From Gordonia alkanivorans NBRC 16433 (GTDB lineage Bacteria; Actinomycetota; Actinomycetes; Mycobacteriales; Mycobacteriaceae), in the NCBI RefSeq assembly GCF_000225505.1, contig NZ_BACI01000002.1, forward strand, positions 1 to 64,000: a stretch of DNA of 64,000 nt, read 5' to 3'. The notes below the pieces were generated by a model that saw only the letters and a list, made by a program, of their open reading frames with translations, made no database searches and was not told the DNA's origin. Numbering within the stretch: the stretch's first letter is position 1; each line of letters opens with the position of its first letter. Position numbers and translations under genes: made by a program. Positions 17,564-31,076 of the stretch are shown one piece after another.

Positions 17564-17585
17564 AATAGTAGAGGTATAGAGTACT
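17564..17585. promoter_or_regulatory. cluster operator site A (22-bp imperfect palindrome)
   Basis: This site carries AATAGTAGA, four variable bases and TAGAGTA. It matches the site at 26821 (opposite strand) at 17 or more of 22 positions. It sits between the leftward VOC-ligase unit and the rightward flavoenzyme gene, so it can control both. The AT-rich block stands out in DNA of high GC content. TACTCT inside it could also serve as a -10 element. Confidence 0.6.
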
Positions 17586-17678
17586 AGTGGATGCTCGGGA
17601 AGCCGTCGGCGGGAGCATCGACCCGCACCCCAAATCGCACGACGGTGTCGTCGAGTCCGTTGTGGCAAGGAGATGTTG

Positions 17679-18656
17679 ATGATGAGAACACGCTTCACCG
17701 AGACCTTCGGGATCGATCATCCGATCGTGTGCGGCGGGATGACCGCCGTCGGAAGGGCGGGCCTCATTGCGGCCGTCGCCGATGCCGGTGCTCTCGGCTT
17801 CCTGACGGCGCTGACGCAGCCGACCCCCGAGGATCTCGCCATCGAGATCGGCCGGGTTCGCGAGTTGACCGACAAGCCCTTCGGCGTGAACCTCACCATC
17901 CTGCCCACGGTGAATCCGGTCCCGTACGACGAGTACCGCGACGCCATCATCGACGGCGGGGTCAAGATCGTGGAGACGGCCGGGGCCAATCCCGAACCGC
18001 ACATGCCAGCCTTCAAGGCCGCCGGCGTCAAGGTGATCCACAAGGCTGTTGCCGTCCGGCATGCGCTGAAAGCCGAACGTCTCGGGGTCGATGCGATCAG
18101 CATCGACGGCTTCGAGTGCGCCGGACACCCCGGCGAGGACGATGTTCCGGGACTGATACTCATCAACGCGGCCGCACGGAAGCTCTCCATTCCGATCATC
18201 GCATCCGGCGGCTTCGCCGACGGTGCCGGCCTGGTCGCGGCGCTCGCGCTGGGTGCGGACGCCGTCAACATGGGCACGCGGTTCGTCGCAACCACCGAAT
18301 CGCCGGTGCATGACAATGTCAAGCAGCAGATCGTCGCCAACGACGAGCGTTCAACCGTCGTCGTTTTCAGGGAGTTCCGCAACACTGCGCGGGTCGCGCG
18401 CAACGCGGTCTCGGAAGAGATCGCCGAGATCTCGGCGCGTCCGGGGGCGACGTTCGCCGACGTCGCGCACCTCGCGTCCGGTGAGCGTGGTCGCCGCGAG
18501 GTGCTCGACGCCGGGAACATGGATGGCGGGATGTGGTGGGCCGGACAGGCTCAGGGGCTCATCGACGAGGTGCTGTCCTGTCGTGAGGTCGTCGACTCGA
18601 TCGTGTCGGAGGCCGAGTCGATCATCGGTGACCGTCTGCCGAAGCTGCTGGGATGA
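17679..18656 (+). CDS. nitronate monooxygenase-family flavoprotein (NPD)
   Basis: A 325-residue FMN-binding TIM barrel of the 2-nitropropane dioxygenase/nitronate monooxygenase family. Visible signatures are [19 protein letters not shown] near the start, the E-C-A-G-H-P-G-E-D active-site segment with its His, and the phosphate-binding [22 protein letters not shown] followed by [11 protein letters not shown]. Related proteins in steroid-degradation regulons (IpdC) act as CoA-ester dehydrogenases or reductases, which may fit this setting better than nitronate oxidation. ATG 17679 has AAGGAG 6 bases upstream; ATG 17682 is equally possible. It is transcribed alone, towards the terminator at 18721. 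Confidence 0.85.
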
Positions 18657-18720
18657 CCCGGTGGGTCCCGAGGTGATCATGCTGGAGACTTGCTGATCGG
18701 CCGTCGGACCGCTCATCACA

Positions 18721-18757
18721 TGACCGCCGCCGGAAGGCTCTTCGCCGGCGGCGGTCA
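18721..18757. terminator. bidirectional hairpin terminator
   Basis: A perfect 13-bp inverted repeat, TGACCGCCGCCGG and its complement, separated by 11 bases. It lies between the convergent ends of the flavoprotein gene (18656) and the hydratase gene (18776). No long U-run follows, which is common in high-GC actinobacteria. Confidence 0.65.
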
Positions 18758-28478: not shown

Positions 28479-29615
28479 ATGTTCCTCAGCCCGGCTGACG
28501 AGTACTTCACCCACCAAACCGCACTGACCCACGCCATGGTGGCGACCAGTGACCCGTCGTGGCGCGAGCGCTACTGGGTCAGCTTCCAGGACACCGAATC
28601 AGGCGACACGGTCCTCACCCTCGGGCTGGGGCGGTACCCGAACCAGGATGTCATGGAGGCGTTCGCCTGCTTCTCCAGCGGCGAGCGGCAGACCAACCTA
28701 CGGCTGTCCCGGACCCTGCTGCCCGACAGCCACGGCATGACCGTCGGACCCCTGTCCTGCGAGATCGTCGAACCCCTTGCGCAACTTCGGTTCACCCTGG
28801 ACGACAATGATTCCGGCTTGCGTTTCGACATCACCTTCGAGGCGACCTTCGAGCCCATGCTCGAGGGAAGGTTCTTCCAGATCAGTCGCGCGCGTGCGAC
28901 CTACGACGCCATCCGCTACGTCCAGCACGGCCGGGCGCGCGGCTGGATCGTCACCCCCGACGGCCGCCGTATCGAGGTGACGCCCGACCGCTGGTGGGCC
29001 GAACGCGACCACTCCTGGGGGACCCGACCGCTGCCTCGTGCCGAAGGGCAACCGCCGGGGGAGCGGCCGGAGTGGAAGATGCTGATGTTCGCACCGCTGC
29101 AACTGCCGGACCTCGCCGTGCACATGTACCTGCAGGAGTCGCGTCCGGGGGAACCGGTTCATTTGTCGGCGAGTGCGATTCGCCCACCCGGCGACAACCG
29201 GGAACTACCGCCGATCGTCGCCGTCGACCACGACCTCAAGTGGGCGGAAGACGCCGCGGCGCCGACCCTGCTCGGCGGACGCGTTGTCCTGACCCTGCTC
29301 GGTGGCGAGACCACCGAGCTCGAGATCACCGCGTGCAAGGGGCGGGCTCACCTGCGCGGCGGCGGCTATGAGGGCTGGAACGGCTGGCGGCAGGGTCAGT
29401 GGCGCGGAGAACTCACCGCCGAGCACGACGAGTGGGACCTCACCGACCGCGACAACTTCTACCGTTACGCGAAAGCGGGATCGGATCACCTCGTCGAGGT
29501 GCGTCACGGCGACGACGTCGGTTACGGCGTCATCGAATACATGGTGCTGCCCGGGTACGGCCGCTACGAGGAGGCACTGCCTCCGCCGCGCGCATCACGG
29601 TCGGATTCGCGATGA
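28479..29615 (+). CDS. beta-rich protein of AttH/CrtC-like type, function unknown
   Basis: A 378-residue soluble protein with no signal peptide. It is rich in aromatic beta strands and contains W-W-A-E-R-D-H-S-W-G-T-R-P at about 172-184, a pattern that recalls the lipocalin-like hydratase folds of AttH and hydroxyneurosporene synthase (CrtC). That relation is a guess from strand pattern. It starts 3 bases after the CoA-ligase stop and overlaps the APH kinase start, so it belongs to the same pathway. It could bind or hydrate a hydrophobic, terpene-like substrate. Confidence 0.7.
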   Translation: MFLSPADEYFTHQTALTHAMVATSDPSWRERYWVSFQDTESGDTVLTLGLGRYPNQDVMEAFACFSSGERQTNLRLSRTLLPDSHGMTVGPLSCEIVEPLAQLRFTLDDNDSGLRFDITFEATFEPMLEGRFFQISRARATYDAIRYVQHGRARGWIVTPDGRRIEVTPDRWWAERDHSWGTRPLPRAEGQPPGERPEWKMLMFAPLQLPDLAVHMYLQESRPGEPVHLSASAIRPPGDNRELPPIVAVDHDLKWAEDAAAPTLLGGRVVLTLLGGETTELEITACKGRAHLRGGGYEGWNGWRQGQWRGELTAEHDEWDLTDRDNFYRYAKAGSDHLVEVRHGDDVGYGVIEYMVLPGYGRYEEALPPPRASRSDSR

Positions 29616-30622
29616 CCGGACTGCGTCCGGGGCTGCTCGAACTCCTCGACGGCACCGGGTTCACCGACGCCGACGACCCGGTCCGCCTCGGCGGTGGCAG
29701 TTCTCAGGAGAACTGGGCCTTCGAGGCGATCGCCGCAGATGGTCGCCGTCGCCCGCTGTTGCTGCGACGTGCGCCGCAGAGCGGAGTCGTCGACACCGAA
29801 CGCGACGTCGAGTACGACCTGCTCCGCCGACTGGCGGGCACCGGGCTGCCCGTCGCCGCCGTCCACGCGCTCGATCCCGACGGCTCACTGATGGGACGTC
29901 CGGCGATGGTCGTGGACCGTCTCGTCGGCCGCGCCGACCGCGCGGTGCTGCGCGACCGTGATCCGTTGCGGCTCGGATCTTCCGGACGACTCGCTCTCGC
30001 CGAAGCGCTGGCAGATCTGTTGGGTAGGGTGCACCGGCTGGACCCGGTAGCGCTGGGCATACCCGGCATCCTGGAATCGCCCGACGATCCCGGGCGCACT
30101 GAACTCGATCGGTGGGAGGCCGAGCTCGACGGCGTCGAACTCGGACCACACCCGGCACTCCGCGAGACGATCGCCTGGCTGCGCGCACACCTGCCGGCTC
30201 CGTCGCCGATTCGACTGGTCCACGGCGACTTCCGGCCCGCCAACGTCCTCATCCACGGGTGCGCCATCAGTGGGCTCCTCGACTGGGAACTGGCCCACCT
30301 GGGCGACCCGCACGACGACCTCGGCTGGTACACGTGCTCGGTCTACCGGAACGAGCACTTCGTCGACGACCGCTGGGGACTCGACGATTTCCTACAGCGG
30401 TGGTCGCAGACCTCCGGGCTGGAGGTGGACCGCGAACGGCTGCACTTCTGGCAGGTCATGACCGCGCTCCGGTTGGCCGTCATCGCACTGACCGGTGTGA
30501 AGGCATTCTGCGACGGTGCGACCGACCGTCCGGCCGGACCCACTCGCCGGATCGAGCTGATCGCGCTGCGCGAGACCGGACTGCTCGACGGTTCCGGACA
30601 TCGGTCAGGAGGACGGTCATGA
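29612..30622 (+). CDS. APH-fold phosphotransferase (ACAD10/11 kinase-like)
   Basis: A 336-residue protein kinase-like phosphotransferase. It shows a glycine-rich loop (RLGGGSSQENW), the catalytic HGDFRPANVL loop (Asp, Asn) and the metal-binding DWELAHLGDP segment. The same APH domain is fused to acyl-CoA dehydrogenase in human ACAD10 and ACAD11, where it phosphorylates 4-hydroxyacyl-CoA. Here kinase and dehydrogenase are separate neighbours, so a hydroxyacyl-CoA kinase role is more likely than antibiotic resistance. ATG 29612 overlaps the previous stop; its own stop overlaps the next ATG (ATGA). Confidence 0.88.
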   Translation: MTGLRPGLLELLDGTGFTDADDPVRLGGGSSQENWAFEAIAADGRRRPLLLRRAPQSGVVDTERDVEYDLLRRLAGTGLPVAAVHALDPDGSLMGRPAMVVDRLVGRADRAVLRDRDPLRLGSSGRLALAEALADLLGRVHRLDPVALGIPGILESPDDPGRTELDRWEAELDGVELGPHPALRETIAWLRAHLPAPSPIRLVHGDFRPANVLIHGCAISGLLDWELAHLGDPHDDLGWYTCSVYRNEHFVDDRWGLDDFLQRWSQTSGLEVDRERLHFWQVMTALRLAVIALTGVKAFCDGATDRPAGPTRRIELIALRETGLLDGSGHRSGGRS

Positions 30623-31005
30623 GACCGCGACCATCAGAGATCATCGCCGGCATCCGTACGGTTCTGAAAGATACGGCCGCCCCCTCGTGCAGCGGCGAAC
30701 ATGCGCGCGCACGTCTCGACGAGATCCGCGCGGTACTGGCGCAGGTCGACTGGGACAACGCAGGATTCGAGCTCGCCCAGCGAACAGATCGACTCGAGGT
30801 CGCGTTGCGAGAGGCACGGCGGTGGCTCGACGACGAGCTGCCGCCGAAACCCGAGCAGCGGGAGTACGCCGCGATCGAGCAGCACTACGAGCGGCTCGCG
30901 GCGCTCGCGGCGGCGGCCTTGACCACGCTCCGTGAGGCCAGGGATCGCGGCCCGGAAGCCGACGCCGCGACGGAGGCATATCAGGGGTTGTTGCGTTCCC
31001 TGTGA
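30619..31005 (+). CDS. small helical protein of unknown function
   Basis: A 128-residue, almost entirely helical protein rich in Ala, Arg and Glu, without Cys clusters or membrane segments. ATG 30619 has a strong AGGAGG ribosome site and overlaps the kinase stop, so it is translated with it. I do not recognise the family. Close coupling suggests it is a structural partner of the APH kinase or of the CoA ligase in the same unit. Confidence 0.7.
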   Translation: MRPRPSEIIAGIRTVLKDTAAPSCSGEHARARLDEIRAVLAQVDWDNAGFELAQRTDRLEVALREARRWLDDELPPKPEQREYAAIEQHYERLAALAAAALTTLREARDRGPEADAATEAYQGLLRSL

Positions 31006-31054
31006 GGACTACGGTCCGCCGCCCGAGGGCGTCGGTGTGGTGTCGTCACATCCA

Positions 31055-31076
31055 TATAGTCTAGAACTAAACTATT
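31055..31076. promoter_or_regulatory. cluster operator site D (22-bp imperfect palindrome)
   Basis: On the minus strand this site begins AATAGT and contains CTAGACTAT, matching site C at about 16 of 22 positions. It lies 45 bases upstream of the FadE gene at 31121 and is the most diverged of the four copies. Confidence 0.5.

Follow-up and report, generated by a model that had tools for sequence, protein, structure and literature searches.

Which regulator reads the repeated AT-rich sites that lie between the genes of an acyl-coenzyme A (CoA) degradation cluster in Gordonia alkanivorans NBRC 16433, and how much of the cluster does it control? We analyzed the first 64,000 nucleotides of contig NZ_BACI01000002.1 (hereafter the window; 67% G+C), in which 20 catabolic open reading frames (ORFs), assigned with Pfam and NCBIfam, form six apparent units (Table 1). 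A first-pass annotation of this DNA had placed copies of one operator at 17564, 19678, 26821 and 31055, and all four are present at those positions. They belong to a real operator set and the regulon that they mark is coherent. We consider it likely that the sites are operators of a MarR-family protein encoded downstream of the first acyl-CoA ligase gene, which would act as an autoregulated repressor of about 20 catabolic genes and would probably be released by a CoA thioester.

Counted by eye in one orientation, the sites at 17564, 19678 and 31055 agree with that at 26821 at 17, 18 and 16 of 22 positions, the last with a one-base shift, in line with the 16-18 matches first reported. On comparison with relatives their common form is an 18-bp inverted repeat, TASTCTA-N4-TAGASTA, with exact copies of the palindrome for example in G020 (TACTCTAGTACTAGAGTA) and G024 (TAGTCTATTGGTAGAGTA; genomes, contigs and loci carry our own G, C and L numbers, G000 being the genome of the window). 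What stands of the proposed 22-bp operator is the repeated site, and what falls is the asymmetric 22-mer. An 18-bp weight matrix built from ten sites of G020, G024 and G004, none of them from the window, also finds a fifth, weak site in front of marR, so that the original count of four was one short. After these five sites the next best position in the window scores 8.0 and overlaps operator 3. Operator 2, with three mismatches to the palindrome, is picked up by the matrix and not by a search with the palindrome at up to two mismatches. The window sites exceed chance: in 50 Mb generated from a third-order Markov model of the window there were 113 matrix sites scoring at least 12 (0.14 per 64 kb) and none scoring at least 20, and 5 Mb of first-order sequence contained five of at least 12. 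An operator precedes the start codon of every catabolic unit, at a distance of 36-52 bases except for NMO, where it is 89. As had been claimed, two operators lie between divergent units; one is between the glyoxalase-family and NMO-family ORFs and the other between the MaoC and ChsH2/DUF35-type ORFs. The regulon would extend over the acyl-CoA cluster as proposed, with 20 catabolic ORFs plus marR in place of the 18 genes first counted.

The palindrome is clustered in its own genome and tracks the MarR orthologue across the genus. At up to one mismatch, AATACTCTAGTA occurs at two places in the 5.07-Mb genome, operators 2 and 3 only, and pattern searching did not reveal the motif at random promoters genome-wide, which the first-pass annotation had named as the mark of a mere -10 preference. 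With up to two mismatches, the range of the own-genome search, the palindrome has 6 matches, 4 of them in the cluster, and the control, the same pattern read in reverse, has 9. One off-cluster match (C38:12811) is inside a long ORF and is unchanged in the cluster-free genome G056; the other is at C79:2556. Palindrome and control number 8 and 16 in G020 and 10 and 12 in G024. Because the palindrome is no more frequent than its control at this stringency, clustering and not count is the evidence: all 10 matches in G024 fall within 66 kb, and all 8 in G020 fall in two short regions, each with a marR gene. The MarR-free genomes G001, G003 and G015 have no palindrome at up to two mismatches, compared to 8-11 matches for the control. 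At up to one mismatch the palindrome is found at 6 places in 4 of the 59 genomes of the genus (G000, G004, G020 and G024), the control in 23 of 59. A MarR orthologue of at least 58% identity is encoded by the same four genomes and by G056, so the palindrome is present in 4 of 5 genomes with the orthologue and 0 of 54 without it (Fisher 1.1e-5, kinship ignored). G056 has a MarR of 93% identity and keeps the gene order recO, uppS, fur, M28 gene, marR and LuxR gene. It contains no match to the cluster from the first ligase to the last hydratase and no site in the 400 bases before marR (best score -1.5).

The MarR protein contains a winged-helix domain (PF01047, 40.3 bits compared to a cut-off of 24.6, using the longer ORF) and matches 42 sequences of solved structures at E <=0.01, the best being 4b8x (3e-22). 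It belongs to no named curated MarR family, the best NCBIfam model reaching 31.9 bits with a cut-off of 157. An M28 peptidase gene follows marR after about 25 bases and may be cotranscribed with it. We compared 59 MarR loci, a part of all matches. The sequence VHATT is found at the recognition helix in 22 of the 25 loci with at least 45% MarR identity and in none of the 34 below. Of the same 25, 11 have a site scoring at least 12 in the 400 bp upstream of marR, and of the same 34, none; leaving out the training site gives 10 of 24 for the closer group. The Fisher values for upstream sites (1.6e-5, and 3.8e-5 without the training site) are only indicative because the loci are related. Some orthologues without an upstream site end a unit that has one, as in G301, where a site scoring 20.7 is followed by thiolase, CoA-transferase, MaoC, NMO and marR.

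Sites also accompany orthologous clusters of a second family, of a Rhodococcus-like genus and of a Rhodococcus plasmid, and several of them lie before marR. MarR matches at E <=1e-32 occur in 6 of 301 genomes of the family (G000, G024, G239, G301, G306 and G311); the last four belong to a large-genome genus and have two or three marR genes each. At up to two mismatches, 8 of 9 palindromes in G239, 8 of 9 in G301 and 6 of 6 in G306 are located in one 52-64-kb stretch together with the marR genes; in G311, whose genome is 74% complete, the contig of one marR holds 4 of 6. The G301 region contains matches of at least 45% to 15 of 19 catabolic proteins tested (all but the acyl-CoA dehydrogenase ORF at 23590-24672 took part), the glyoxalase, first acyl-CoA dehydrogenase, SDR and last hydratase not being found at that level. 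Plasmid pRZP2 of Rhodococcus sp. ZPP encodes a MarR of 84% and an SCP2-type thiolase of 95% identity within an annotated cluster of like gene products, and carries equivalents of operators 2 and 3 and a further site 21 bases before marR. Three more Rhodococcus plasmids encode MarR and thiolase at a similar level, far apart in one of them.

Across the class, MarR matches at E <=1e-28 occur in 11 of 394 genomes. In the second family, f15, sites start 71-73 bases before the inferred marR start at L078, L079, L080 and L081 (scores 15.0-21.2), a visible, low-scoring site (4.1) precedes marR at L077, and a site scoring 20.5 precedes the DUF35-thiolase unit in the clusters of G340 and G362. Four genomes with a MarR of 38-43% identity have 1, 1, 0 and 0 palindromes at two mismatches and six with closer orthologues have 3-6, with 5-10 and 4-14 control matches in the two groups. 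At loci L005, L006 and L007, where the ligase is 53-56% identical, there is no MarR match and no site above 7.3 with a 21-bp matrix built from the window sites.

Table 1. Operators, regulator genes and catabolic units of the window
Feature	Position	Strand	Description
Operator 5 (new, weak)	15348..15365	-	TACTCAAGGCGTAGACTT; 45 bases upstream of marR start codon; score 12.0; two mismatches to palindrome
Operator 1	17566..17583	.	Divergent: glyoxalase-family/ligase unit (36 bases) and NMO (89 bases); score 14.2
Operator 2	19680..19697	.	Divergent: MaoC (46 bases) and DUF35-thiolase unit (52 bases); score 23.3; equivalent site in pRZP2
Operator 3	26823..26840	.	Second acyl-CoA ligase unit (39 bases); score 25.8; equivalent site in pRZP2
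Operator 4	31057..31074	.	Acyl-CoA dehydrogenase/SDR/MaoC unit (46 bases); score 21.0; one mismatch to palindrome
MarR-family regulator	14787..15302	-	171 amino acids, GTG start at 15302; proposed operator reader; PF01047
Unit 1	15508..17529	-	Glyoxalase-family ORF (17098-17529), AMP-binding acyl-CoA ligase (15508-17055); Pfam
Unit 2	17673..18656	+	NMO-family flavoprotein; Pfam
Unit 3	18776..19633	-	MaoC/MFE-2-type hydratase; Pfam; start codon inferred from sequence
Unit 4	19750..26775	+	DUF35/ChsH2-type protein, SCP2-type thiolase, type III CoA-transferase, two acyl-CoA dehydrogenases, thiolase, enoyl-CoA hydratase
Unit 5	26880..31005	+	Second acyl-CoA ligase, Rv3169-family protein, APH-type kinase, hypothetical protein
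Unit 6	31121..36471	+	Acyl-CoA dehydrogenase, SDR, MaoC-like, acyl-CoA dehydrogenase, enoyl-CoA hydratase
LuxR-type large regulator	36925..39198	-	Far end of cluster; PF00196, PF00931; not favored as operator reader

In the proposed mechanism a MarR dimer would bind the inverted repeat and block RNA polymerase at the six catabolic units and at its own gene, since the distances of the sites to the start codons place them at the expected core promoter. In the presence of substrate, a CoA thioester produced by the acyl-CoA ligases of the cluster would bind MarR and free the DNA, and about 20 genes would be switched on together. CouR, HcaR, FerC and BadR are MarR regulators that answer to CoA thioesters, according to the available part of a published survey (PMC10458429). 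Ligase genes such as a CouR/HcaR-type system would need are found here, one ORF adjoining marR and the second lying behind operator 3, and by analogy with CouR and HcaR a CoA thioester is the most likely releasing ligand. The MarR protein could instead read the sites as an activator or in both directions, or answer the free acid; the part of the survey cited tabulates some MarR proteins as activators or as both and others as responding to free acids. We regard this as unlikely, though far from negligible: the site positions fit promoter occlusion better, and a CoA ligase gene adjoins marR in the window, G020, G004 and pRZP2, neither point being decisive.

It is improbable that the operators are read by another regulator, be it a TetR-family protein or the LuxR-type one encoded at the cluster's far end, with MarR as a passenger of the cluster. 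The palindrome would suit a TetR dimer equally well and TetR-like genes are found in the regions of G020, G301, G306, G340 and G362, but a home-made TetR profile detects none in the pRZP2 and G239 regions and a single doubtful one in G024 (E 0.0019); the only one that it picks up in the window, at 56.7 kb, is not in the cluster. All 10 of 10 regions contain MarR-like ORFs, a biased sample in which most regions were chosen via marR. In G020, G301, G239 and pRZP2 the cluster comes with a LuxR orthologue; the best LuxR match in G024 is 34% despite many sites, and the matches in G056 and G004 are broken up. Neither candidate tracks the sites consistently and both were rejected as operator reader, and the sites before marR in several lineages also count against them. 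The MarR protein, one of the candidate binders named by the first-pass annotation, is the best supported by these sites, by its co-occurrence with the palindrome in the 59 genomes and by the lack of a consistent rival. That the motif is a mere AT-rich promoter or -10 preference is hardly credible and was rejected: the blocks are AT-rich and in several window sites the right half looks like a -10 element (TACTAT), but 55 of the 59 genus genomes lack the palindrome at up to one mismatch, G001, G003 and G015 have none even at two, and the window scores are not reproduced by third-order Markov sequence.

Several observations weigh against assigning the operators to this MarR protein. Its own operator is weak, 14 of the 25 orthologous loci have no upstream site scoring at least 12, and the counts are taken over related loci and are not independent. 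In G000, G020 and G024 the reversed pattern matches at least as often as the palindrome when two mismatches are allowed. Strong palindromes (21.4 and 25.3) are located about 0.7 kb from the marR start at L090 and L091 of the second family, where MarR is distant (36-41%); these sequences suggest that a related MarR may use the same operator. The proposal of one operator and one regulon is upheld by the sites, their clustering and their conservation in relatives, and one MarR switch very probably controls the whole acyl-CoA degradation pathway.

A local MarR regulon with several operators is of a known kind. CouR, HcaR, FerC and BadR, as described in the available part of their source, share with the present system a MarR protein, a palindromic operator of 16-20 bp and a catabolic pathway starting with a CoA ligase, binding being predicted here. 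They control small aromatic-acid pathways, whereas this regulon would comprise about 20 genes in seven units with five operators. KstR2, a TetR-type regulator of cholesterol catabolism with the 14-bp motif AnCAAGnnCTTGnT (PMC3068626, in part), likewise is a local regulator with few palindromic operators in divergent regions near start codons and a block of CoA-dependent ring-degradation genes. By inspection its motif is unrelated to the 18-bp repeat proposed for MarR. The Lcin1 motif of the lithocholate-induced cluster E of Nocardioides simplex, TCCCGGT[C/G]ACCGGGA (PMC7593942, in part), was also obtained as a palindrome by phylogenetic footprinting in a bile-acid catabolic cluster, with the regulator unproven there; it is GC-rich and of different sequence. 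Identity with the KstR2 or Lcin1 motif was rejected as the sequences, as given in the accessible parts of these papers, differ. Among the matches listed for the 10-mer TACTCTAGTA, no paper is on the subject by title. Longer motif cores do not occur in the literature searched, which is thin on subscription journals, and topic searches of the same literature yielded no description of the regulon by title or abstract start. What appears to be new is the operator, the range over which it occurs and its connection to an uncharacterized catabolic island.

The 20 catabolic ORFs include four acyl-CoA dehydrogenases, two AMP-binding ligases, two thiolases and two enoyl-CoA hydratases; the hypothetical ORF of unit 5 is assigned to no Pfam family. 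The unit 4 thiolase next to the DUF35-type protein has SCP2-thiolase as its nearest solved structure; for the fourth acyl-CoA dehydrogenase the closest are Tcur3481 and 4x28. In a scan of 10 proteins, scores stayed below the curated steroid and cholate equivalog cut-offs: the best NCBIfam model is CasG for the second ligase (408.6 bits, cut-off 750) and IpdE2 for the fourth acyl-CoA dehydrogenase (156.5 bits, cut-off 450). These best models and the likeness to Tcur3481 and 4x28 are a hint and no proof of a steroid-like or polycyclic isoprenoid acid, which judging from sequence is perhaps the substrate.

The Rv3169-family protein (28479-29615) scores 384.7 bits with a cut-off of 150, and its gene adjoins the second ligase also in G020, G024, G301, G239 and G340. 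The clusters of G020 (L014/L008) and pRZP2 (L074/L076) contain extra genes near operators, encoding a P450, PPDK-like and PEP-utilising enzymes, an E1 dehydrogenase, a luciferase-type monooxygenase and a GMC protein that is nearest to cholesterol oxidase (561.8 bits, cut-off 850). In G056 (L049 and L050, C34:1186000-1225999) marR and the LuxR gene stand side by side with no cluster between them and the LuxR match is in two pieces; the LuxR match in G004 (C78:160862-163127) is also in two pieces, one with a stop. Outside the operator cluster, an ORF on the minus strand of the window (56728-58602) encodes 624 amino acids with two TetR_N domains and presumably resembles the double-TetR Mce3R.

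For Rhodococcus, the accessible part of PMC4810484 mentions additional steroid-degradation-like clusters without known function. It is a tentative idea, to which we give somewhat less than even weight, that MarR and its palindrome mark out a hitherto undescribed actinobacterial pathway that has spread horizontally. It would act on polycyclic isoprenoid or steroid-like acids under a MarR sensor and run in parallel with the KstR/KstR2 and cholate systems. If true, the operator would be a tag by which the P450, flavin-monooxygenase, PPDK-like and cholesterol-oxidase-like modules found in relatives are assigned to this pathway. With the regulator-operator pair present in at least two families, on chromosomes and a plasmid, members of the pathway could be listed from sequence, and the pair would provide a testable sensor for finding the pathway substrate.

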